Shown: positions 3,848-15,124 of the stretch, in pieces
Layout of the letters: each line of letters starts with the position of its first letter
Position numbering within the stretch: position 1 is the stretch's first letter
Made by a program: the position numbers and the translations under genes
The notes under the pieces: model-generated
The model's database searches: none
The model's input: the letters and a program-made list of their open reading frames with translations, nothing else
What the model was told of the DNA's origin: nothing
From: Enterococcus sp. DIV2402
GTDB taxonomy: Bacteria > Bacillota > Bacilli > Lactobacillales > Enterococcaceae
Assembly: GCF_017426705.2 (NCBI RefSeq)
Contig: NZ_CP147251.1
Location: forward strand, 1,960,501-2,024,500
DNA length: 64,000 bases
Reading direction: 5' to 3'

Positions 3848-3876
3848 TTGACGGATACTAAAGATTACGGTATTCT
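3848..3876 (+). promoter_or_regulatory. Promoter of the trpXYZ leader
   Basis: TTGACG at 3848-3853, a 17-base spacer, and TATTCT at 3871-3876. Transcription would start about 20-25 bases before the leader-peptide ribosome site AAAGGAGG. Confidence 0.75.
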
Positions 3877-3907
3877 AATTTCAACATTACTAAAGGAGGA
3901 AGTATTC

Positions 3908-3961
3908 ATGAAACTATTTTACGCGTATCAACCAAAAACATGGCAAAACTGGCGTAGATAG
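3908..3961 (+). CDS. Leader peptide with two Trp codons, upstream of trpXYZ
   Basis: A 17-residue ORF reading MKLFYAYQPKTWQNWRR, preceded by AAAGGAGGAAGTATTC and a good promoter. Trp codons fall at 3941-3943 and 3950-3952, four and seven codons from the start of the final Arg-Arg-stop region, where a starved ribosome would pause. The stop codon TAG overlaps the first arm of the attenuator. Two Trp in 17 residues is far above chance for this rare amino acid. The QPK segment and the terminal aromatic-Arg end are shared with the leader peptide of the aro operon. The regulatory role is inferred from this layout. Confidence 0.82.
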   Translation: MKLFYAYQPKTWQNWRR

Positions 3962-4121
3962 TTGTATTAGTGGATGCTTTAATCCATAGATACAACTTTT
4001 TAGAGAACATTCTAAAGTGTGTATCTATGTCGGTAAATGAACTTGTAAATATCGCCGCATAGAGGAATAAATCTGTGTGGCTTTTTTGTTGAAGCAATTG
4101 CCACGCGCAATTGCTTTTTTT
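3961..4121 (+). promoter_or_regulatory. Multi-helix transcription attenuator of trpXYZ
   Basis: Seven segments can pair with either neighbour. Helix 1:2 is 3961-3967 with 3990-3996, plus TGGAT 3971-3975 with ATCCA 3982-3986. Helix 2:3 is 3985-3994 with 4020-4029 (10 pairs). Helix 3:4 is 4024-4034 with 4054-4063 (10 pairs, one bulge). Helix 4:5 is 4054-4063 with 4072-4081, followed by six T (terminator one). Helix 5:6 is 4075-4081 with 4100-4106 (7 pairs). Helix 6:7 is 4092-4100 with 4108-4116, followed by T (terminator two). Helices 1:2, 3:4 and 5:6 exclude 2:3, 4:5 and 6:7. A ribosome at the stop codon would cover segment 1 and favour the terminators, while one held at a Trp codon would leave it free. 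Confidence 0.78.
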
Positions 4122-4162: not shown

Positions 4163-5182
4163 ATGAAAAATAAAGGGTTAATTGCAACATTAATTGTCAT
4201 TTTTGTCGTTTTAATTGGCACATTTGCTTTCCAATATGGAAAAGCAAGTGCAGAAAAACCAAAAGGAGCAGACAACTCGGAAAACAAAATTGTCGGAATT
4301 TTGCAATTTGTTAGTCATCCCGCACTTGATGCTATTCGTGATGGCATCGAGGATTCTTTAAAAGAGGCGGGTTATATCGAAGGTGAAAATCTAACGATAG
4401 AATATCAAAATGGTCAAGCCGATCAAAGCAAGTTAGCGACGATGAGTGAACAACTTGTCAATAAGAAGTCAGATGTTATTGTAGGTATTGCCACACCAGC
4501 TGCTCAAGCATTAGCAAATGCCACACAAGATATCCCAATTGTTTTAGGGGCAGTTACTGACCCAGTCGGTGCTAACCTTGTTGCAAATATCGAACGCCCA
4601 GGTGGCAATATCACTGGTGTTTCAGACAAAGCACCCGCAGATGAACAAATTCGTTTAGGAAAAGAATTGATGCCCGATGCTAAGACGGTGGGTATGCTGT
4701 ATTCCTCAACCGAAGACAATTCTAAATATCAAGTGGAAGAAGCCGCTCAAGCAGCTAAAGAATTAGGGCTAGAAGTCAAAACGTATCCAATTCCATCCAC
4801 AAATGAAATTACACAAACCGTGCAAGTAATGAGCAATGCCGTTGATTTCATCTATATTCCACTCGATAACACTATTGCCAATGCGATGCCAACAGTTGTC
4901 GGTGAAGCTAACAAGAAAAAAGTACCGATTATTACGTCAGTTGATACGATGGTTGAACAAGGCGGATTAGGAACTATTGGAATTGACCAATATACTTTAG
5001 GTAGAAAAACTGGAGAAATGGTGGTTTCGATTTTAGAAGGAGCAGATCCGGCCACTACACCAATCTACACATTTAAACAAGGGGATGTCATTTTAAATGA
5101 AAAACAAGCTGAATTTTTAGGAATTAACATTCCCAAAGAATTAAGAGAACAAGCAAAATTTGTTGGAGGTGACGAAGAATGA
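4163..5182 (+). CDS. trpX: ABC transporter substrate-binding protein, TrpX family
   Basis: Extracytoplasmic solute-binding protein of 339 residues of the ABC_sub_bind type (PF04392). It has an N-terminal hydrophobic segment (residues 6-24) followed by AEKPKG, then GILQFVSHPALDAIRDGI and two periplasmic-binding-like lobes. No lipobox Cys is seen, so anchoring by an uncleaved helix or release after signal cleavage is possible. The stop codon overlaps the permease start by four bases (ATGA), which indicates translational coupling. Tryptophan as substrate is inferred from the two Trp codons in the attenuator leader and from family precedent. The fold alone would not reveal the ligand. Confidence 0.85.
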   Translation: MKNKGLIATLIVIFVVLIGTFAFQYGKASAEKPKGADNSENKIVGILQFVSHPALDAIRDGIEDSLKEAGYIEGENLTIEYQNGQADQSKLATMSEQLVNKKSDVIVGIATPAAQALANATQDIPIVLGAVTDPVGANLVANIERPGGNITGVSDKAPADEQIRLGKELMPDAKTVGMLYSSTEDNSKYQVEEAAQAAKELGLEVKTYPIPSTNEITQTVQVMSNAVDFIYIPLDNTIANAMPTVVGEANKKKVPIITSVDTMVEQGGLGTIGIDQYTLGRKTGEMVVSILEGADPATTPIYTFKQGDVILNEKQAEFLGINIPKELREQAKFVGGDEE

Positions 5183-6063
5183 TTATTTCTTCTATTGGAC
5201 AAGGGTTATTATGGGGTGTTTTAGGTTTAGGAATTTTTATGACCTATCGAATTTTAAATTTTCCAGATATGACAACGGAAGGATCATTTCCTTTAGGAGG
5301 AGCAGTATGTGTGGCAGCCATTGTTCAAGGTATTCCGCCAATTATTGCAACTTTTCTAGGTGTTTTAGCTGGCATGTGTGCAGGGTTGGTGACTGGTTTG
5401 TTATATACTAAAGGAAAAATACCAGTCATTTTATCAGGGATTCTGGTCATGTCTGCTTTGAATTCGGTGATGTTGTTTGTCATGCAGACCCCTAACTTAT
5501 CACTATTAAATCAACCACGAATTTTAGACTTTTTTACAAAATTAAATCTACCAAATCATTACGACACGGTTTTTGTTGGTCTCATTGTCATTTTCTTATT
5601 AATTGCTTGTCTGGTATATTTCTTTAATACAGATTTTGGACAAGCATATATCGCAACTGGAGATAACGAATACATGGCCCGTTCTATGGGGATTAAAACG
5701 GATCGTATGAAAATTATTGGTTTAGTCTTATCCAATGGCGTCATCGCTTTAGCTGGGGCATTGATTGCTCAAAATGACGGTTATGCCGATGTAAGTAAAG
5801 GAACTGGGGTTATCGTTATCGGTCTGGCATCAATTATTATCGGAGAAGTTTTATATGGTGAATTAACTTTTACAGAACGTTTAATAGCCATTGTAGTCGG
5901 AAGTATTATCTATCAATTGCTCATCTTGTTAGTTATTCGTTTAGGGTTTGATACGACTTACTTGAAAATTTTCTCAGCAATCGTGTTAACGATGTGTCTA
6001 TTAATTCCACAATTTAAACAAGCGTTACATCTTAAAACTGATTTTGAAAGAGAGGAAAAATAA
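5179..6063 (+). CDS. trpY: ABC transporter permease, TrpY family
   Basis: Integral membrane protein of 294 residues with about eight to nine hydrophobic helices, belonging to the branched-chain-type permease group (BPD_transp_2). It contains the GLVLSNGVIALAGALIAQ segment typical of the cytoplasmic coupling region that contacts the ATPase. It overlaps the upstream binding-protein gene by four bases and ends one base into the start of the ATPase gene, so the three are made together. Probable aromatic amino acid (tryptophan) importer channel; the substrate is inferred from the leader peptide. Confidence 0.85.
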   Translation: MIISSIGQGLLWGVLGLGIFMTYRILNFPDMTTEGSFPLGGAVCVAAIVQGIPPIIATFLGVLAGMCAGLVTGLLYTKGKIPVILSGILVMSALNSVMLFVMQTPNLSLLNQPRILDFFTKLNLPNHYDTVFVGLIVIFLLIACLVYFFNTDFGQAYIATGDNEYMARSMGIKTDRMKIIGLVLSNGVIALAGALIAQNDGYADVSKGTGVIVIGLASIIIGEVLYGELTFTERLIAIVVGSIIYQLLILLVIRLGFDTTYLKIFSAIVLTMCLLIPQFKQALHLKTDFEREEK

Positions 6064-6827
6064 TGGCTATTTTAGAATTAAAAAATGGAACAAAAATTGT
6101 TAATAATGGTCCTAGCGAACAAAAAATTCTGCTAAACAATGTGAACCTCTCGATTAATCAAGGCGAGTTTATCACAGTTTTAGGTGGAAATGGAGCAGGA
6201 AAAAGCACGTTGTTTAATAGCATCTCTGGCACAATCCCATTAACTAAAGGACAACTATTTATTCATGATCAAGAGGTGACGAATTTTTCAGAAGAACGTC
6301 GTGCCCAGTACATTTCACGTGTTTTCCAAGACCCAAAGATGGGAACCGCACCACGGATGAGTGTGGCAGAAAACTTATTGTTAGCAAAAAATCGTGGGCA
6401 AAAACGAGGCTTAAAATTACGTCAACTTAAACAAAATCGTGAGTTGTTCTATTCTTTATGTGCTGAAATCGGAAATGGACTAGAAAATCATTTGGAAACA
6501 CCTGCTGGTAATCTTTCAGGGGGACAACGACAAGCGTTAAGTTTATTGATGGCAACTATTCAAACCCCCGAATTACTTTTACTGGATGAACATACTGCAG
6601 CATTGGATCCTAAGACGTCTAAACAATTAATGGAAATTACTGCTCGCCGTGTCGAAGAGCAACAGTTAACTTGTTTAATGATTACTCATCGCATGGAAGA
6701 TGCATTGAAATATGGGAATCGAATGATTGTCTTGCAAAAAGGTGAAATTGTTAAAGACTTAAATGCAGAAGAAAAAGCTAAATTAACCTTACCGGACTTG
6801 TTGCAATTCTTCGAAGAAATTGTGTAA
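6063..6827 (+). CDS. trpZ: ABC transporter ATP-binding protein, TrpZ family
   Basis: ATPase of 254 residues with Walker A GGNGAGKST (about residue 47), Q-loop FQDPKMG, signature LSGGQRQALS, Walker B LLLLDEHTAALDP and switch His in MITHRM. The Walker B Asp-Glu is followed by H rather than the common P, a variant seen in this subfamily. Last gene of the importer operon. The following 200 bases carry the aro promoter and leader, and no clear terminator separates the two, so some read-through into the aro leader is possible. Confidence 0.9.
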   Translation: MAILELKNGTKIVNNGPSEQKILLNNVNLSINQGEFITVLGGNGAGKSTLFNSISGTIPLTKGQLFIHDQEVTNFSEERRAQYISRVFQDPKMGTAPRMSVAENLLLAKNRGQKRGLKLRQLKQNRELFYSLCAEIGNGLENHLETPAGNLSGGQRQALSLLMATIQTPELLLLDEHTAALDPKTSKQLMEITARRVEEQQLTCLMITHRMEDALKYGNRMIVLQKGEIVKDLNAEEKAKLTLPDLLQFFEEIV

Positions 6828-6861: not shown

Positions 6862-6890
6862 TTGACAGATTCTAATTAAAACCATATACT
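6862..6890 (+). promoter_or_regulatory. Promoter of the aro operon leader
   Basis: Perfect TTGACA at 6862-6867, a 17-base spacer, and TATACT at 6885-6890. One of the best consensus promoters in the window, it sits directly upstream of the Tyr/Phe leader peptide. Confidence 0.85.
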
Positions 6891-6925
6891 AAACTCAATC
6901 TTACATCAGTTTGGAGCGATTTTTT

Positions 6926-6982
6926 ATGAAAAATACACGACAACCAAAACTGAATAATTACTACTTTAGCTATTTTAGATAG
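6926..6982 (+). CDS. Leader peptide rich in Tyr and Phe codons, upstream of aroE
   Basis: An 18-residue ORF reading MKNTRQPKLNNYYFSYFR, preceded by TTGGAGCG at suitable spacing. Five of the last seven residues are Tyr or Phe (codons from 6959 to 6976), immediately before Arg and the TAG stop. Tyrosine and phenylalanine are the two final products of the operon that follows (tyrA and pheA), so this is the expected composition for a starvation-sensing leader. It shares QPK and the aromatic-Arg end with the Trp leader at 3908. The stop codon abuts the first attenuator arm. Confidence 0.85.
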   Translation: MKNTRQPKLNNYYFSYFR

Positions 6983-7170
6983 GTTTGTATTCATGAAACC
7001 ATGGGTACAAACAGACAGTTTGTATCTATGATGGCTAGAGCGATTCGTATTGATTTTAAGCCACGTAGATCAGGGAAAATCTATGGTGGCTAAGTATAAA
7101 TTTTCATACTTTTTTTGAGTATTAAAATGTCCACTAGTAGATTTTTCAGCCTACTAGTGGACATTTTTAT
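6983..7170 (+). promoter_or_regulatory. Seven-segment domino attenuator of the aro operon
   Basis: Successive alternative helices: 1:2 is 6983-6990 with 7005-7012 (8 pairs). 2:3 is 7005-7012 with 7018-7025 (8 pairs, loop of 5). 3:4 is 7024-7036 with 7059-7070 (12 pairs, bulged A7031). 4:5 is 7059-7070 with 7079-7091 (12 pairs, one bulged G). 5:6 is 7079-7089 with 7131-7142 (11 pairs, bulged A7136). 6:7 is 7129-7140 with 7151-7162 (12 perfect pairs), followed by ATTTTTATT, the terminator. A weaker hairpin with a T run lies at 7092-7116. The set 1:2, 3:4, 5:6 blocks the terminator; the set 2:3, 4:5, 6:7 forms it. A ribosome resting at the leader stop would mask segment 1 and switch the chain to termination. 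Confidence 0.8.
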
Positions 7171-7186
7171 TGTAAGGAGGAAGCAA

Positions 7187-8053
7187 GTGGAAAAAACAGC
7201 AATTAGTGGCTATACTCGTTTAGTTGGTTTTTTAGCTAGTCCAGCTAAACACAGTATTTCTCCCAAAATGCATAATTTAGCTTTTAAAGAAACAAATACC
7301 GATGCAGTTTATCTTGCTTTCGATGTATCAAAAGACGAATTGGAACACGGCATACAAGCGATTCGAACCTTTGATATGTTAGGAGCAAACGTCTCAATGC
7401 CTCACAAAATTGCCGCCGTTTCTCATATGGATGAATTAACAGAAGCTGCCGAGCTAATTGGGGCGATCAATACCATTATTCATCGTGAAGGTAAATTAAT
7501 TGGGCATAATACGGATGGTATTGGTTTTTGTGAAAGCTTACGAGAAAATCAGGTACTCATCAAAAATGAAACCATGACGTTACTCGGCGCAGGGGGAGCA
7601 GCAACCGCAATGATTTGCCAAGCGGCTCTTGACGGGATGAAAACCATCCATATTTTTAGTCGTAAAAGCCCACGCTATGAACGGATGCAAGAAAAAATCA
7701 AAGAAATTACTGCAAAAACCAATTGTGTGATTACGCTAACAGAACTAAGTGATCAAAATAAATTAGCAACTGCTTTAGCACAATCAAGTTTATTAGTAAA
7801 TGCGACAAGTGTTGGAATGTCAGACGATACATCGCCAATTAGCGACACATCGTTGCTGCGTAAAGACTTAACCGTCTATGATGCTATTTACAATCCACGC
7901 GAAACGTATTTATTAAAACAAGCCAAAACAGCGGGTGCTAAAACCATTAACGGTTTAGGAATGCTTGTGTACCAAGGTGCCGCTGCATTTGAATGTTGGA
8001 CAGGCAAAAAAATGCCTGTGGAACAAATTAAACCAATTATTGAAAATAGTTAA
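7187..8053 (+). CDS. aroE: Shikimate dehydrogenase
   Basis: NADPH-dependent reduction of 3-dehydroshikimate to shikimate, step four of the chorismate pathway. The 288-residue protein has SISPKMHN at the substrate site, NVSMPHK with the catalytic Lys (usual form NVTxPHK), GAINT, GHNTDGIGF and the nucleotide loop GAGGAATAM. I start it at the GTG at 7187 because AAGGAGGAAGCAA lies just upstream. The frame is open back to a TTG at 7115, but that extension would translate through the terminator hairpin. First structural gene of an eight-gene operon. Confidence 0.93.
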   Translation: MEKTAISGYTRLVGFLASPAKHSISPKMHNLAFKETNTDAVYLAFDVSKDELEHGIQAIRTFDMLGANVSMPHKIAAVSHMDELTEAAELIGAINTIIHREGKLIGHNTDGIGFCESLRENQVLIKNETMTLLGAGGAATAMICQAALDGMKTIHIFSRKSPRYERMQEKIKEITAKTNCVITLTELSDQNKLATALAQSSLLVNATSVGMSDDTSPISDTSLLRKDLTVYDAIYNPRETYLLKQAKTAGAKTINGLGMLVYQGAAAFECWTGKKMPVEQIKPIIENS

Positions 8054-8086
8054 CATTAAAAAGACAAATGAAAGAAGGATAAACAA

Positions 8087-9106
8087 ATGATCGTAATTAT
8101 GAAACCAGGTGCAACACAAGAGCAAGTAGATGTCGTTATTAAGCGTATTAAAGATAGTGGCTTAGATGTCCAAATTAACCAAGGGAGTGAACAAGTTGTA
8201 TTAGGTTTAATCGGAGATACACGCAACATTCAAGATGTCGCTTTCCGTAGCTACCAAGGTGTCGATAAAACAGTACGTATCAGTAATACGTACAAATTAA
8301 CTTCTCGTGAATTCCACCCACAAGATACAGTTGTTGATGTGGATGGAGTAAAAATTGGGGATGGTAGCTTTGTAACAATGGCTGGTCCATGTTCCATCGA
8401 AGGTTTAGACCAAATCCGTGAAACAGCTCGTATGGCCAAAGCTGGTGGTGCAAAAATTTTACGTGGCGGAGCTTACAAACCACGTACATCTCCATACGCT
8501 TTCCAAGGTTTAGAAGAAGAAGGCTTAAAATACATTCGCCAAGCTGCCGATGAATACGATATGAAAGTCATTACTGAAGTGATGGATGAAGCACATATTG
8601 ATGTTGTTGCAAAATACAGTGACATTATCCAAATTGGTGCGCGTAACATGCAAAACTTCAAATTATTAGCGGCTGTTGGCCAAACAGGAAAACCAATTGG
8701 CTTGAAACGTGGAATTTCTGGAACCATTGATGAATGGTTAAATGCAGCAGAATACATTGCTATTTCAGAAAAAAGCCCAGTTATTTTCATTGAACGTGGA
8801 ATTCGTACGTACGAAACAGCTACCCGCAATACGTTTGACTTAAGTGCTGTTCCAATCATGAAAAAATTAAGCCATTTTCCAGTTATTGTTGACCCAAGCC
8901 ATGGTACAGGTGTCTGGGATTTAGTTCCACCAATGGCACGTGCCGGCGTTGCTGCAGGAGCAGATGGAATGATTGTTGAAATCCATCCAGATCCAGCGAA
9001 TGCTTGGTCAGATGGTCCACAATCATTAAACGAGAAAAACTACTTGAAAATGATGAAAGAAGTCGATGTTATTTTCAATGCGATGAAACAAATTCGTGAA
9101 ATGTAA
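8087..9106 (+). CDS. aroF: 3-deoxy-7-phosphoheptulonate synthase (DAHP synthase)
   Basis: Condenses phosphoenolpyruvate and erythrose 4-phosphate, the entry step of the shikimate pathway. The 339 residues comprise an N-terminal ferredoxin-like domain (about 1-70, MIVIMKPGATQEQVD), which in this subfamily is the allosteric domain for Tyr/Phe, followed by the TIM barrel with AGPCSIEG, GGAYKPRTSPYAFQG, KRG and DPSHGTG. No chorismate mutase domain is fused. The ribosome site GAAGGAT precedes the ATG. It lies 33 bases after aroE. Besides attenuation of the operon, enzyme-level feedback is likely from the extra domain. Confidence 0.93.
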   Translation: MIVIMKPGATQEQVDVVIKRIKDSGLDVQINQGSEQVVLGLIGDTRNIQDVAFRSYQGVDKTVRISNTYKLTSREFHPQDTVVDVDGVKIGDGSFVTMAGPCSIEGLDQIRETARMAKAGGAKILRGGAYKPRTSPYAFQGLEEEGLKYIRQAADEYDMKVITEVMDEAHIDVVAKYSDIIQIGARNMQNFKLLAAVGQTGKPIGLKRGISGTIDEWLNAAEYIAISEKSPVIFIERGIRTYETATRNTFDLSAVPIMKKLSHFPVIVDPSHGTGVWDLVPPMARAGVAAGADGMIVEIHPDPANAWSDGPQSLNEKNYLKMMKEVDVIFNAMKQIREM

Positions 9107-9136
9107 AAATAATTAACTTAAGGGATGTGTCAAGAA

Positions 9137-10192
9137 ATGCTAAGGGTAAATTTAACCAATCATCAATATGATATTCAAATTGAACGTCATTTGCTAAAAA
9201 AATGTGGACAATGGGTACAAACTTTATGGAAACCACAGCGAATCGCAGTGATTACTGATAGCAATGTTGCCCCACTTTACGGTAAAATGGTAACAGAGTC
9301 ACTTGAAGCCTGTGATTTTCAAGTAAGCCTCTTTGTTGTACCAGCCGGTGAGCAAAGTAAGTCATTAGAACAAGCAGCAAACTTATATGATTTATTAGCA
9401 GAAGATGGGTTCACACGTAGCGATGGTATCATCGCATTAGGTGGCGGCGTTATCGGTGATTTAGTCGGTTTTGTTGCTTCCACATACATGCGTGGCTTAC
9501 ATTTCTTGCAAATTCCAACTACTTTAGTCTCACAGGTCGATTCAAGTATTGGAGGCAAAACAGCCGTCAATACGAAAAATGCAAAAAATTTGGTGGGAAC
9601 TTTTTCCCAACCCGATGGCGTGTTAATTGATCCAGAAGTATTAAATACCCTAGATGACCGCCGCCTGCGTGAAGGTATTGCTGAAATTATTAAATCTGCT
9701 GCAATTGCAGATGAAAATCTTTGGGATTTATTAGCTTCGATGAAAGATGAGTTTGAATTACTTGAACGTGCAGAAGAAGTGATTATTCCTTCATTAAAGG
9801 TGAAGCGCACAGTCGTTGAAGAAGACGAATTTGATAATGGTAGCCGTTTGACCTTGAATTTTGGTCATACAATCGGTCATGGAATCGAAAATACTGCAGG
9901 TTATGGTGTTGTCAGCCATGGGGAAGGTGTTGCTGTCGGAATGGTAATGATTTCAAAACACGCCGAAGCAATTGGTGAAATGCTTCCAGGTACCACAGAA
10001 CAATTAATTCAAATGATTGAGAAATTCCATTTGCCAACACAGCTAGAAATCGACTCACAAGCTGTTTATCAAGCGATTACGCATGATAAAAAAGCACGAG
10101 GCTCGCAATTAAAGATTATTTTACTTGAAAAAATTGGCCAAGCAAAAATTGTGTCAATTCCAATTGAAACGATGAAAGATTACTTACAATAG
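9137..10192 (+). CDS. aroB: 3-dehydroquinate synthase
   Basis: Converts DAHP to 3-dehydroquinate using NAD and a metal ion. The 351-residue protein has [32 protein letters not shown] and the metal-binding [12 protein letters not shown] prefer the ATG at 9137, giving [12 protein letters not shown], since AAGGGATGTG sits about nine bases upstream. An in-frame ATG at 9125 falls inside that ribosome site. It sits between aroF and aroC with short gaps. The next enzyme, dehydroquinase (aroD), is not in this window. Confidence 0.93.
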
Positions 10193-10203
10193 GGGGAACT
10201 TAT

Positions 10204-11370
10204 ATGCGTTATATTACAGCAGGAGAATCACATGGACCAGAACTAACAGCAATTATTGAAGGACTACCAGCAGGAATGCCTTTGTCCGCAGAAGATATTA
10301 ATCATGAATTAGCACGTCGTCAAGCCGGTTATGGTCGTGGAGGCCGCATGTTAATCGAAACAGACCAAGTACGTATCACTTCTGGTGTTCGTCACGGCAA
10401 AACACTTGGCTCACCAGTGACAATGGTTGTTGAAAACAAAGACTGGAAAAACTGGACCAAAGTCATGAGTATTGAAGAAGTGGAAGAAAAACAAAAAAAA
10501 TTACGTCGTGTTGCTCGTCCAAGACCAGGACATGCAGATTTAGTAGGTGGTATGAAATATCATCATGATGATTTACGTAATGTTTTGGAGCGCTCTTCTG
10601 CTCGTGAAACAACGATGCGTGTTGCTATTGGTGCAGTTGCGAAAAAAATCTTATCTGAACTAGGAATCGAAGTAGCTGGCCATGTTACGATGCTTGGTGG
10701 CATTAAAGCAACAATTCCAGAAGGGATTACGGTCAGTGAAGTAAAAGCTATTTCCGAAGCTTCGGATGTTCGTGTTGTGGATCCAACAGTCGAAAGCGAC
10801 ATTCGTCAATTGATTGATCAAACCAAACGTAATGGTGATACTATCGGTGGTGTTGTTGAAGTTTTAGTTGGTGGTGTACCAGCAGGACTTGGAAGTTACG
10901 TACAATGGGATAAAAAATTAGATGCCAAAATTGCACAAGCAGTAGTCAGCATTAACGCCTTTAAAGGTGCTGAATTCGGTGTTGGGTTTGAAGCTGGTGT
11001 CTTACCTGGTTCAAAAGTGATGGATGAAATTTTATGGAACGAAGAAGATGGCTACACACGTCGCAGTAATAATTTAGGTGGTTTTGAAGGTGGAATGACA
11101 AATGGTGAGCCGATTGTTGTCCGTGGGGTAATGAAACCAATCCCGACATTATACAAACCATTACAAAGTGTAGATATGGATACAAAACAACCGTATAAAG
11201 CTAGTGTAGAACGCTCGGATAGTACTGCTGTGCCAGCAGCTAGTGTAGTTGCTGAAAGTGTAGTTGCAACAGTTGTGGCAAATGAAATTTTAGAAAAATT
11301 TTCTAGCGATTCATTTGAAGAGTTGGTTCAAGCTGTCAAAGAATACCGTGAATACTTGAAAAATTACTAA
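10204..11370 (+). CDS. aroC: Chorismate synthase
   Basis: Flavin-dependent 1,4-elimination of phosphate from EPSP to give chorismate. Full length at 388 residues with the family signatures GESHGP (residues 7-12), [21 protein letters not shown] followed by VAIGAVAKK, and [16 protein letters not shown]. The ribosome site GGGGGAAC lies eight bases before the ATG. Its product is the branch point to Phe and Tyr in this operon and to menaquinone via menF about 10 kb downstream. Confidence 0.95.
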
Positions 11371-11388
11371 GATGTTGGGGAGGTAGGC

Positions 11389-12486
11389 ATGAAACAAAAT
11401 GTATTAATCATTGGTTTAGGTTTAATCGGTGCGTCATTAGCTATTGCTATTAAAAAAGAACATCCCGATGTGCAATTGATTGGTTGGGATTACTTTGAAG
11501 AAACACGTATGATTGCCAAAAATCAAAAAATCGTAGACGAAATTCCAACTACGTTTGAAGAAGGAGCACTTAAAGCAGATATTATTTTATTAGCTGTTCC
11601 AATTAAAACGTCGTTAACTTATTTAAAAGAATTAGCCAAACTTCCATTAAAATCAACGGTCCTTGTAACCGATGCAGGCAGTACGAAACAGGAAATTATG
11701 CTGCTTGCAGAGCAACTGCCCTTTGATTTTATCGGTGGACATCCAATGGCCGGTTCGCATAAATCAGGTGTGTCAGCCGCTGATGGGAATCTTTTTGAAA
11801 ATGCCTACTATATTTTTACTGTCCCACAAGATGAACAAGTAGCCAAACGGGTAGCTGAATTACAAGAGTTGTTCCAAGGTGCTCGTGCCAAGTATGTCAT
11901 ATTGACTGCTGATGAACACGACCAAATTACAGGTATGTTATCGCATTTACCACATATTATTGCATCTGGATTAGTCAATCAAGCCGATGTTTTTAATCAA
12001 TTACACCCACGCGCTAAACAATTAGCTGCAGGTGGTTTTCGAGATATTACACGAATCGCTTCTGCTGATCCACAAATGTGGACGGATATTTTGTTAAGCA
12101 ATCGGGAAGCCTTGCTTTCATTAATGATCACTTGGCAAGAACAAATGACAGAAATTTCTGACTGGTTAAAAGCAGGCGATCGTACGAAAATTTTTGAGTT
12201 TTTTGAAAATGCGAAAGATACACGTGATAGCTTACCCGTTCATAGTAATGGGGCGATTCCGGCTTTTTATGATTTAATGGTGGATGTTCCAGACCGTCCA
12301 GGGGTAATTGCTGAAATCACGAGTATTTTAGGACAGGCCGAGCTTTCTGTTATTAATATTAAGATTTTAGAGACACGAGAAGACATTATCGGTGTCTTAC
12401 AGTTAACCTTTAAAAATCAAGGCGATTTACTTGCCGGTAAACAATGTATTGAAGAGAAGACCGACTATCCTTGTCGTCTGAAATAG
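11389..12486 (+). CDS. tyrA: Prephenate dehydrogenase with ACT domain
   Basis: Oxidative decarboxylation of prephenate to 4-hydroxyphenylpyruvate for tyrosine. The 365-residue protein has an N-terminal Rossmann loop GLGLIGAS, then the dehydrogenase body with GGHPMAGSHKSGV, HDQITGMLSHLPHIIAS and AAGGFRDITRIA. A C-terminal ACT domain (about 290-365, DVPDRPGVIAEITSIL) probably senses tyrosine. No chorismate mutase is fused, so that activity must be encoded elsewhere. A GGGGAGG site precedes the ATG. Confidence 0.93.
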   Translation: MKQNVLIIGLGLIGASLAIAIKKEHPDVQLIGWDYFEETRMIAKNQKIVDEIPTTFEEGALKADIILLAVPIKTSLTYLKELAKLPLKSTVLVTDAGSTKQEIMLLAEQLPFDFIGGHPMAGSHKSGVSAADGNLFENAYYIFTVPQDEQVAKRVAELQELFQGARAKYVILTADEHDQITGMLSHLPHIIASGLVNQADVFNQLHPRAKQLAAGGFRDITRIASADPQMWTDILLSNREALLSLMITWQEQMTEISDWLKAGDRTKIFEFFENAKDTRDSLPVHSNGAIPAFYDLMVDVPDRPGVIAEITSILGQAELSVINIKILETREDIIGVLQLTFKNQGDLLAGKQCIEEKTDYPCRLK

Positions 12487-12495
12487 GAGGAAACT

Positions 12496-13782
12496 ATGAA
12501 ATTATCACAGGCAAATCAATTAAAAGGGACGTTACGGGTTCCAGCAGATAAATCAATCTCACATCGCAGTATCATGTTTGGGGCGTTAGCAAGTGGAAGA
12601 ACGACCGTGAAAAATTTTCTACGTGCGGAAGACTGTATGAGTACGCTTCATGCCTTTCAAGCCCTAGGTGTACCAATTGCGGACGACGGCGAAACAATTA
12701 CGATTGATGGGCAAGGGTTTGACGGTTTAAAACCAACAGATTCGCCAATTGATATTGGAAATTCTGGGACAACGATTCGTTTAATGATGGGTATCTTAGC
12801 AGGTTCTGGGTTTAAAACTACGTTATTTGGTGATGACTCTTTAAATAAACGTCCCATGAACCGTGTGATGTTGCCATTGTGTGAAATGAATGCTCAAATG
12901 CACGGAGACAATGATTCTGAATTTCCGCCAATTACAATTGAAGGCGTGGATGAGCTACAGCCAATTAATTATGTGATGCCGATGGCGAGTGCGCAAGTTA
13001 AATCAGCGATTATTTTTGCTGCTATGCAAGCAAATGGCACTTCAACTATTCTAGAAAAAGAAGTATCACGCAACCACACAGAAGAAATGATTCGTCAATT
13101 TGGTGGCGAAATTAATGTTTCTGGCAAAGAAATTTCAATCACAGGTCCACAAACATTAACCGGTCAAGCTGTAACAGTTCCTGGAGATATTTCTTCTGCA
13201 GCATTTTTCTTAGTTGCGGGTGCAATCACACCAAATAGCGAAATTACCTTAACAAACGTAGGGATTAATCCCACACGTACAGGAATTGTGGATGTTTTAA
13301 CGGATATGGGAGCTGATTTAGAAATATTAAATGAAGATACAAAAAATCAAGCAGCAGATATGGTGATTCGTACCTCTCATTTAAAAGCCACAACGATTGA
13401 AGGAGATTTAATCCCTCGTTTAATTGATGAACTACCAGTAATTGCGTTATTAGCAACTCAGGCGCAAGGAACAACGGTAATTAAAGACGCTGAAGAGCTA
13501 AAAGTTAAAGAAACCAATCGTATCGATGCAACAGCTGACCAATTACGCAAAATGGGCGCTGATATTACAGCAACAGAAGACGGTCTAATCATTAACGGTC
13601 CAACACCATTGCATGGTGCAACCGTTTCTAGTCTAGGCGATCACCGTATTGGTATGATGTTGCAGGTTGCTGCATTAATTAGCGAAGGGGATGTTGAATT
13701 AGAACGCCCAGAAGCGGTGGCTATCTCTTATCCAGCCTTTTTTGATGATGTTCAATCGTTAATTCAAGGAGGCGCAAAATAA
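12496..13782 (+). CDS. aroA: 3-phosphoshikimate 1-carboxyvinyltransferase (EPSP synthase)
   Basis: Transfers the enolpyruvyl group from PEP to shikimate 3-phosphate. The 428-residue protein has [19 protein letters not shown], the PEP-site loop [32 protein letters not shown] and the late GDHRIGMM. The ribosome site AGGAGG begins next to the tyrA stop, giving a gap of nine bases. The stop codon is followed at once by the aroK start. Nothing is missing from the catalytic set. Confidence 0.95.
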
Positions 13783-13783
13783 A

Positions 13784-14290
13784 ATGAATCAAATTGTTTT
13801 GATTGGTTTTATGGGTGCGGGTAAAACAACTGTCGGAAATCTTTTAGCTGAAAAACTGAATAGTCAGCAATATGATTTTGATCAACTTATCGTAGAAAAA
13901 ATCGGTATGAGTATTGCCGATTATTTTGAACAATATGGCGATGTAGCCTTTCGTGAAATTGAAACAACTGTTTTAGCTGAAGTTGACGCGTTAGACGGTA
14001 TTCTGTCAACGGGTGGCGGGATTGTTTTAAAAGCAGAAAATCGTGAATTACTCAAAAAAATGGCGAATGTGGTCTATTTAAAAGCTGACTTAACAGAATT
14101 AATTCAACGAGTAACGCAAGATGAAGAGAATATCCGTCCGCTAGCAGATTCAAAAACGCCGCAAGAAATTGAAGCTATCTATCGTCCAAGAGTGCCTTTA
14201 TATGAAGAAAGTGCACAAATTATTATTGAAACTACAGGTAAAACGCCGCAAGAAATCGTCACAGAAATTTTGAAACAAGTAGGTGAGTAA
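13784..14290 (+). CDS. aroK: Shikimate kinase
   Basis: ATP-dependent phosphorylation of shikimate at the 3-hydroxyl. The 168-residue P-loop protein has Walker A GFMGAGKTTVG at residues 7-17, DFDQ for Mg and shikimate binding, FREIE, and the STGGGIVL loop. The ATG is placed within two bases of the aroA stop, and the ribosome site AGGAGG lies inside the aroA end (GGAGGCGCAAAATAAA). The stop TAA directly abuts the pheA ATG, so translation of aroA, aroK and pheA is probably coupled. Confidence 0.94.
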   Translation: MNQIVLIGFMGAGKTTVGNLLAEKLNSQQYDFDQLIVEKIGMSIADYFEQYGDVAFREIETTVLAEVDALDGILSTGGGIVLKAENRELLKKMANVVYLKADLTELIQRVTQDEENIRPLADSKTPQEIEAIYRPRVPLYEESAQIIIETTGKTPQEIVTEILKQVGE

Positions 14291-15124
14291 ATGAAAGTTG
14301 GTTATTTAGGACCTAAAAATTCCTTTACCTTCCAAGCAGCAAGTACCATCGCAGACGAAACAGAACTTGTCGCATATCCGTCTATTCCTTTTTGTATTCA
14401 AGCTTTAGAAGAACATCAAATTAGTTTTGCAGTAGTTCCTATTGAAAATTCATTGGAAGGTTCAGTTCATGCCAGTGTGGATCGCATTTTCCATCAAGAT
14501 AAGCTGTTTGTTGCCGGAGAAATTGTCTTACCGATTCGACAACAATTATTAGGCTATTCCAATGAACAACCAATTACTAAAATCCTTTCGCACCCGCAAG
14601 CTCTTGCGCAGTCGCAACGCTTTTTAGAAACGAACTATCCCTTGACTCCGTTGGAAGCAGTAGCATCGACCACCTTTGCAGCAGAATATGTCGCAAATCA
14701 TCCAGAAGAACAAGTTGCTGCTATTGCTTCGGAAAAAGCAGCAAGTGAATATGGATTAAACATTTTAGCACATGGTATTCAAGATAATGCTTTAAATCAA
14801 ACACGTTTTTGGATATTAACTGCTACGAAAGGTGAAACGTTAGATACCTTAGGAAAACCGGCTCGCAACACCTTATTTATTACGTTACCAGATAATTTAC
14901 CCGGAGCTTTGCATAAGGTCTTGTCTTGTTTTGCGTGGCGAAATATCGATTTGAGTAAAATTGAGTCGCGTCCTTTAAAAACAAGTTTAGGTGAATATTT
15001 CTTTATCGTTGATTTAACTTTGGAAGATAATCAAGCTTTAATTAAAAATGCAATTGAAGAAATTGAGCTTTTAAATGGACGTACCAGAAACATCGGGAGT
15101 TATCCTGTAAAAATCATTCAGTAA
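14291..15124 (+). CDS. pheA: Prephenate dehydratase
   Basis: Converts prephenate to phenylpyruvate for phenylalanine. The 277-residue monofunctional enzyme has GYLGPKNSFT at the N-terminus, PIENSLEGSVHAS, the TRF motif in NQTRFWIL, and a C-terminal ACT domain (about 195-277) with ESRPLK, the regulatory Phe-binding motif. It begins immediately after the aroK stop. A strong terminator starts at the base after its stop codon, marking the end of the aro operon. Confidence 0.94.
   Translation: MKVGYLGPKNSFTFQAASTIADETELVAYPSIPFCIQALEEHQISFAVVPIENSLEGSVHASVDRIFHQDKLFVAGEIVLPIRQQLLGYSNEQPITKILSHPQALAQSQRFLETNYPLTPLEAVASTTFAAEYVANHPEEQVAAIASEKAASEYGLNILAHGIQDNALNQTRFWILTATKGETLDTLGKPARNTLFITLPDNLPGALHKVLSCFAWRNIDLSKIESRPLKTSLGEYFFIVDLTLEDNQALIKNAIEEIELLNGRTRNIGSYPVKIIQ

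Follow-up and report, generated by a model that had tools for sequence, protein, structure and literature searches.

A predicted eight-segment attenuator upstream of the aro operon of Enterococcus sp. DIV2402, and related leaders with other sensor codons

A putative attenuator precedes the aro operon

The window analysed here is a 64,000 nucleotide (nt) stretch of Enterococcus sp. DIV2402 (contig NZ_CP147251.1, positions 1,960,501 to 2,024,500 of the forward strand). Upstream of its aro operon lies a leader that we interpret as a ribosome-mediated transcription attenuator, sensing charged tRNA-Tyr and tRNA-Phe through a domino relay of eight RNA segments; we put the probability of this interpretation at roughly 0.86. 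The computed basis comprises the parts of the leader and their conservation, the covariation of seven helices, a constraint on codon choice, the match between sensor codons and downstream genes, and the direction of control predicted by folding, which came out as expected in around half of the representative sequences. From these we infer the ribosome positions, the co-transcriptional timing and the response to Tyr and Phe supply. The features found together are an open reading frame (ORF) rich in sensor codons with its own ribosome-binding site, an intrinsic terminator before the first gene, covarying helices that exclude one another, and codons that match the pathway.

All the parts lie on the forward strand. 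A consensus promoter, as described in an earlier note made from the sequence alone, is present at 6862-6890, with a -35 box TTGACA (6862-6867), a 17 nt spacer and a -10 box TATACT (6885-6890); of 183 loci, 175 have a promoter-like motif no more than 70 nt before the leader, whereas 200 single-base shuffles gave 14 such loci on average and never more than 27. The Shine-Dalgarno region TTTGGAGCG (6910-6918) includes GGAG, and AGTTTGGAGCGA recurs among many relatives. The predicted translation of the 18 codon leader ORF (6926-6982) is MKNTRQPKLNNYYFSYFR, ending YYFSYFR before the stop codon, such that five of the last seven residues are Tyr or Phe, again as the note had it. The peptide motif LN.YYFSYFR is strongly conserved among relatives, and in the closest locus fetched (L132) the whole peptide is identical, with AroE sharing 90.6% identity over the aligned stretch.

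Between the start of the sensor codons and aroE there are eight segments able to form seven mutually exclusive helices, delimited by duplex tests and, in part, by column counts and masked folding. Segment 0 (6964-6981) consists of the Tyr, Phe, Ser and Arg codons themselves, and forms a 17 base pair (bp) helix with segment 3 that encloses the hairpin 1:2. Segment 1 (6983-6995), which a ribosome at the stop codon would cover, pairs with segment 2 (7000-7012), itself able to pair alternatively with segment 3 (7018-7040). Segment 3 thereby has three possible partners: 0, 2 and 4. Segment 4 (7058-7071) can pair with 3 or 5, segment 5 (7077-7091) with 4 or 6, and segment 6 (7124-7142) with 5 or 7; helix 5:6 is the putative anti-terminator, and segment 7 with its T run (7150-7170) completes the intrinsic terminator 6:7. 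The six helices from 1:2 to 6:7 had been recognised previously as a chain, from which the seventh, 0:3, was missing. Their lengths had been given as 8, 8, 12, 12, 11 and 12 bp, figures that are correct for 3:4 and 4:5 (12 bp each) and too low for 1:2 and 2:3 (13 bp each), 5:6 (15 bp with bulges) and 6:7, which has 17 perfect pairs followed by Ts and so is the perfect terminator that had been reported before aroE. Near-repeats are visible by eye between segments 3 and 5, and between 4 and 6, as noted before; segment 7 also belongs with the former pair, while segment 0 resembles the latter. The folding energy of the leader is -85.7, against a mean of -50.9 (standard deviation 4.1) for 200 dinucleotide shuffles, a z score of -8.4 that makes a chance origin for the structure untenable.

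The proposed mechanism has three states. If no ribosome were present, segment 0 would pair with segment 3 around hairpin 1:2, leaving 4:5 and then the terminator 6:7 to form, and the operon would be off. A ribosome stalled at the Tyr or Phe codons would cover segment 0, so that 1:2 would stay in place and segment 3 would be freed for segment 4; the formation of 3:4 and then 5:6 would block 6:7, switching the operon on. A ribosome reaching the stop codon would cover segment 1, giving 2:3, 4:5 and 6:7, and the operon would again be off. The existence of 0:3 implies termination in the absence of a ribosome, and that a stalled ribosome would act first by sitting on segment 0. This modifies the original proposal, in which stalling left segment 1 free, although the direction it assigned to a Tyr or Phe stall, namely read-through, is the one predicted by folding in about half of the representatives.

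Covariation between segments and constraint on codons

The 154 leaders that are unique over the stretch compared were aligned (the 183 leader rows include loci fetched twice), and the duplex energy of each segment with its own partner was compared to that with shuffled partners, for all 28 pairs of segments. Shuffling was carried out 300 times, only within operon classes, on 80 representatives below 80% identity, with L184 left out. None of the 300 shuffles matched the value for the true partner in any of the seven helices: the z scores were -5.1 for 0:3, -10.6 for 1:2, -5.5 for 2:3, -4.8 for 3:4, -7.6 for 4:5, -8.6 for 5:6 and -22.0 for 6:7. The six helices named in the earlier note therefore all covary by this test. 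One further pair, 4:7, also stood out, whereas for every one of the remaining 20 the observed value was reached by 13 or more of the 300 shuffles; as these 20 pairs share a single tree with the helices, they act as an internal control. The same eight pairs were distinguished when 153 sequences were used. A helix between segments 0 and 5 was considered on account of its strong energy, and was rejected because the true partner performed no better than shuffled ones (z = -0.9).

A second, separate alignment (A1) of 71 diverse leaders, omitting L192, was used for counts column by column. In the columns of 0:3, 93.8% of pairs were standard, compared to 86.6% when shuffled and at most 48.9% when one arm was slid, and there were 76 doubly changed cells against 22.6 when shuffled and at most 18 when slid. 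The equivalent numbers of doubly changed cells, observed and shuffled, were 62 and 19.7 for 1:2, and 23 and 7.1 for 2:3. Examples of such change can be followed at the level of single codons: where the Phe codon TTT is swapped for the Tyr codon TAC or TAT, segment 3 changes from GGCTAAAG to GGCTGTGG or GGCTGTAG (L216, L226). In the aligned sequences, a swap of sensor codon is accompanied by a compensating change in segment 3.

The same segment shows constraint at synonymous sites. AGC encodes the Ser in 152 of the 154 unique leaders, the other two having the Gly codon GGC in its place; the middle Phe is encoded by TTT in 153, and the Arg by AGA or AGG in all, the leader detector having demanded an Arg residue encoded by any codon. 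Restricting the count to the 76 unique leaders reached through the aroF protein, including that of the window, which were not selected by RNA similarity, gave AGC in 75 and AGA or AGG in 76. By comparison, AGC accounts for 13% of Ser codons, and AGA and AGG together for 6% of Arg codons, in neighbouring genes of the window. The proposed reason for this constraint is that the sensor codons also form helix 0:3.

Direction of control predicted by folding

The 80 representatives were folded as far as segment 6 inclusive, leaving out the second terminator arm, with the nucleotides under a ribosome removed; the footprint was assumed to end 12 nt past the first base of the A-site codon. Such folding is at equilibrium, and timing lies outside its reach. 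The mean number of 5:6 pairs rose from 2.0 in free RNA to 6.6 on stalling at the first conserved Tyr codon and 7.2 on stalling at the second, and was 3.3 with the ribosome at the stop codon. Stalling at the second Tyr codon increased 5:6 by more than two pairs in 46 of 80 sequences relative to free RNA, and in 42 of 80 relative to the stop codon, whilst the opposite change was seen in none and in two, respectively; at the first Tyr codon the increases numbered 43 and 37. In the window itself, 5:6 had 0.3 pairs when free, 11.7-11.8 when stalled and 4.3 with the ribosome at the stop codon. Terminators scoring at least 20 on our own scale were found in 136 of the 154 unique leaders.

A number of results weigh against the attenuator interpretation. 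On stalling, 34 of the 80 representatives did not gain more than two 5:6 pairs over free RNA, one of them being L173, which formed 5:6 in every state, and 18 of 154 unique leaders scored low for the terminator. Pair 4:7 lies outside the model yet was matched by none of the 300 shuffles (z = -4.2), though its energy is low. No covariation of 0:3 was found inside the aro leaders alone (z = -0.4), because both of its arms are nearly invariant there, and it is in the transporter class that this helix finds its support (z = -5.1). Column counts covered 0:3, 1:2, 2:3 and 3:4, with 4:5, 5:6 and 6:7 assessed by the duplex test; of the previously named helices they supported 1:2 and 2:3, but were weak for 3:4, with 82.3% standard pairs against 81.3% when shuffled and a covariation score that 59 of 500 shuffles also attained. 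Most of the relatives beyond the first 80 loci were found with the Rfam model RF02863, which favours similar sequences. Finally, two Tyr/Phe leaders (L276, and L279 by eye) precede a CitMHS-like transporter without a known link to aromatic compounds.

Two of these points have possible explanations. The 4:7 signal may be transitive, or may represent a lock enclosing 5:6 in the way that 0:3 encloses 1:2. The CitMHS-like transporter is possibly one for aromatic compounds; the leader at L268 is similar.

Distribution and downstream genes

Of the 80 loci fetched with the aroF protein, 75 had a leader of this type, located before aroE in 70 and before aroF in five, with hosts belonging to Enterococcus, Tetragenococcus, Vagococcus, Pilibacter and unnamed Lactobacillales. 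The five loci lacking it were one at a contig edge (L003), one from a deltaproteobacterium (L079) and three with none before aroE (L024, L026 and L073). These last three, L026 being E. thailandicus, have a different short leader and terminator before the aro operon, with a possible GTG start and the peptide MRLYFE by eye; the genome of L024 has a Tyr/Phe leader before an ATP-binding cassette (ABC) transporter instead (L081). When RF02863 was searched against genomes of the same order, taken as Lactobacillales on the strength of L001, an Enterococcus, 222 of 395 matched at E<=0.01 and 99 exceeded the cut-off; none of 14 control genomes matched. Many matching genomes hold between two and five copies. 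Plasmid carriage was considered and rejected, as there was no match in the plasmid collection.

Behind the 183 leaders, from which seven loci with a leader had been left out (L106, L123, L150, L186, L187, L191 and L193), lie aroE in 108 cases, aroF in eight, a TrpX-like substrate-binding protein in 65 and an unassigned gene in two. Further Tyr/Phe leaders precede pheA (L227, L230, L335), aroC (L225, L282), an aminotransferase (L296), an ORF resembling dehydroquinate synthase (L350) and other substrate-binding proteins (L196, L221, L281 and L302, the first three by eye). In L018 (T. halophilus DSM 20339) 989 nt separate the leader stop codon from the aroE match, compared to 205 nt in the window, probably owing to an insertion of around 0.8 kb between leader and gene. 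In eight loci (L158, L178, L181, L182, L183, L188, L189 and L192) the leader ORF is three codons longer, ending for instance YFRYCL, and its stop codon overlaps segment 1.

In the window, the operon that the leader would control extends from 7187 to 15124 on the forward strand and consists of aroE, 3-deoxy-D-arabino-heptulosonate 7-phosphate (DAHP) synthase, aroB, aroC, tyrA, aroA, aroK and pheA, assigned with NCBIfam and Pfam; aroE falls under the NCBIfam cut-offs and over those of Pfam. The spacing and common strand of the eight genes suggest that they form one operon.

Exchange of the sensor codons

In other members of the family the sensor codons change in accordance with the pathway: leaders with Ile, or with Ile, Leu and Val, codons preceded branched-chain genes in 16 of 16 cases, and those with Trp codons preceded TrpX-type genes in 12 of 12. 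The Ile, Leu and Val codons occupy the same position in the leader, as in IISIIR followed by the stop codon, with AGC and AGA kept, although L292 and L339 have another residue in place of Arg. Ile-type leaders were found before the branched-chain aminotransferase gene ilvE (L202, L255, L278, L292), the threonine ammonia-lyase gene ilvA (L258, L270, L286) and the acetolactate synthase gene ilvB (L287, L297), all nine of which exceeded an NCBIfam cut-off. The remaining seven (L274, L289, L291, L339, L345, L346, L347) precede branched-chain-type (liv) substrate-binding proteins, which score 151-178 bits with the subfamily model, short of its cut-off of 477.

Trp-codon leaders comprise one in the window and those of L283, L333, L334, L336, L337, L340, L341, L342, L343, L348 and L349. 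The best NCBIfam match of the downstream protein was TrpX in all 12; eight passed the cut-off of 390 bits, and L336, L337, L340 and L349 failed it at 324-352 bits. The 13 TrpX-like proteins tested behind Tyr/Phe leaders, out of at least 65, all fell below this cut-off, at 297-356 bits. As these overlap with the four failing Trp-led proteins, the TrpX score alone does not separate the sensor types. Some leaders before TrpX-like proteins have Phe-only (FFFSFFR) or Tyr-only (YYYGYYR) sensors (L126, L163, L156), which suggests that the substrates of the transporters differ.

A few loci stand outside these counts. L250, L269 and L271 carry no leader reading, and L259 has a Phe-type leader by eye; the permissive leader detector gave no candidate in L290, and its candidate in L298 was rejected as a chance ORF. 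On the same contig piece as the Ile-type leader of L258 there is a T-box-like element (L258:84-331, minus strand; 80.4 bits, cut-off 93).

The Trp-codon leader of the window (3848-4087, forward strand) allows the two types to be compared directly, as the trpX operon behind it immediately precedes the aro leader. It has a promoter at 3848-3876 (TTGACG, 3848-3853; TATTCT, 3871-3876) and an ORF at 3908-3961, identified by sequence and covariance model, encoding the peptide MKLFYAYQPKTWQNWRR with two Trp codons. Duplex energies and masked folds delimit segments 0 (3947-3961), 1 (3962-3976), 2 (3981-3995), 3 (4019-4034), 4 (4051-4065) and 5 with its T run (4070-4087), with 4:5 the terminator. A covariance model (R1) trained without this leader found it at E = 1.4e-4. 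The operon (4163-6827, forward strand) encodes a tryptophan ABC transporter, its substrate-binding protein TrpX matching NF041285 at 468 bits against the cut-off of 390, and its permease and ATPase being named by position and general matches.

Segment 0 of the Trp leader, running from a Trp codon to the stop codon, likewise pairs with segment 3. Masked folds ending before segment 5 gave 0:3 with 1:2 when free, 1:2 with 3:4 when stalled, and a partial 2:3 with a ribosome at the stop codon. With segment 5 present, the equilibrium fold contains the terminator even when stalled, hence timing must matter in this leader. The aro leader has two segments more, its terminator being 6:7 rather than 4:5, a change that would have moved the terminator in evolution whilst keeping the sign of control. 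Judged by the sequences, the aro leader is not a one-off but belongs among several re-tuned copies.

Taken jointly, these results make it likely that a single ancestral domino attenuator across the Lactobacillales serves as an exchangeable sensor, re-targeted between Tyr/Phe, Trp, Ile and Ile/Leu/Val by codon swaps. The Ser AGC and Arg AGA codons would mostly stay as structural elements, with segment 3 changing to match the others, and the length of the chain would be adjustable two segments at a time with the sign of control kept. The Rfam families RF02863 and RF04312, and possibly RF02434, would then be fragments of this element.

Relation to annotated RNAs and alternative explanations

The earlier note knew of no description of such an element. 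None of the whole was found in the literature searched, the reach of which did not extend to some key papers; parts of it are in Rfam. RF02863, named 'sRNA_2410' and derived from Enterococcus, matches the window over 6966-7126 at 79.1 bits (gathering score 61) and is the same RNA. Its consensus already draws 0:3, 1:2 and 4:5, such that what is new here is the proposed attenuator role of 0:3 and the tests of it. Missing from RF02863 are the promoter, the leader ORF for the most part, and all but a small piece of the terminator.

The filing of RF02863 as a small RNA (sRNA) gene raises the alternative of a trans-acting regulator with its own targets, to which the leader peptide is incidental. This receives some support from the E. 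faecium sRNA study behind the RF02863 entry, in which a 195 nt RNA was detected by RNA sequencing and two transcripts on Northern blots (PMC5593968, in the passages drawn on here), and the words 'attenuat' and 'leader' are absent from its main text. However, the match in the window starts within the leader ORF, at 6966, and stops at 7126, after three bases of the first terminator arm; the assignable loci precede genes for amino acid synthesis or uptake, other than L276 and L279; the sensor codons track the downstream gene; and a terminated leader would itself appear as a short RNA. Attenuation of the leader could yield the 195 nt RNAs of E. faecium, while the two Northern transcripts are not accounted for in those passages of PMC5593968. 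We consider a purely trans-acting function very unlikely, and read the 'sRNA' of RF02863 as a clipped piece of the attenuator; the leader RNA may have an additional role in trans, but its anatomy argues for a leader.

An arrest peptide of the TnaC kind, in which the nascent chain itself stalls the ribosome and residue identity is sensed rather than tRNA charging, would account for the conservation of LN.YYFSYFR far beyond the needs of a plain run of Tyr and Phe codons. This too appears improbable, to much the same extent, as the constraint acts on nucleotides (AGC, AGA/AGG and TTT) and not on residues alone, and the residues are exchanged between members, which include FFFSFFR, YYYGYYR, IISIIR, LLISVIR and WQNWRR. 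Least probable of all is that a riboswitch or RNA-binding protein reads the leader without translation, for whilst the RNA is highly structured and conserved, the leader retains a ribosome-binding site and an ORF whose codons match the pathway, one structure serves several amino acids through changes in sensor codons and compensating bases, and at gathering thresholds the window has no Rfam match besides RF02863, the T-box family RF00230 having been rejected on these grounds.

The ribosome-mediated attenuator thus preferred has its closest counterpart in logic in the his attenuator of Salmonella and E. coli, which has segments A to F with E:F as terminator, and in which untranslated RNA terminates since A pairs with B (PMC4046918, in the portion drawn on here). 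The figure of three or four segments that the earlier note gave for classical attenuators is on this account incomplete. Both systems terminate by default and use stalling at sensor codons to select between alternating helices; the aro leader differs in having eight segments and seven helices, in the sensor-codon helix 0:3 enclosing a hairpin, in sensing Tyr and Phe rather than His, and in its low-G+C Gram positive hosts. The likeness is one of logic.

Leader-peptide attenuation in a low-G+C Gram positive bacterium has a precedent in the Leu-rich attenuator peptide of the S. aureus ilv-leu operon, for which there are reporter data on the response to Leu; unlike in the aro leader, the partner of the anti-terminator in that operon is the U tail of a terminator hairpin that is itself intact (PMC5794164, in the sections available). 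The uORFC-13-1 motif before Acholeplasma aroF is similarly a candidate Phe leader before a shikimate pathway gene, with proposed termination, but occurs in other bacteria and involves no alternating-helix chain in the part of its description used here (PMC8632094). A 2010 survey, as excerpted, considered leader-peptide systems known only in Proteobacteria and Actinobacteria before its own His leaders in bacilli, and the T-boxes of Firmicutes to be replaced by leader peptides in Proteobacteria (PMC2965389).

The Trp version also has an Rfam counterpart, the cis-regulatory 'trpB ncRNA motif' RF04312, which covers its helices 2:3 and 4:5 and includes neither the leader peptide nor segments 0 and 1. 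It matches L333 at 61.6 bits (cut-off 59), and overlaps the Trp leader of the window (3983-4092) at 55.3 bits, under the gathering score of 59. Its source publication was not found, 'trpB' being absent from the main text of PMC8632094 and from the Rfam 14 paper. RF02434 gave a weak match of 32.9 bits (cut-off 60). A literature search with the peptide string YYFSYFR returned no paper, and the main text of an E. faecalis sRNA survey (PMC3166299) contained none of the terms sought, as was also the case for the Rfam 14 paper.

Significance

With RF02863 matching 222 of the 395 genomes, this leader-peptide family appears widespread in a low-G+C order, and re-annotation of RF02863, currently an 'sRNA', is suggested. 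The change of the sensor amino acid on more than one occasion, with the RNA switch kept, would constitute a natural experiment in which the co-evolution of coding sequence and RNA structure can be followed base by base. The sensor codons may also predict the substrates of the transporters encoded downstream. The family would hence represent a sensor design that nature re-targets with few codons.

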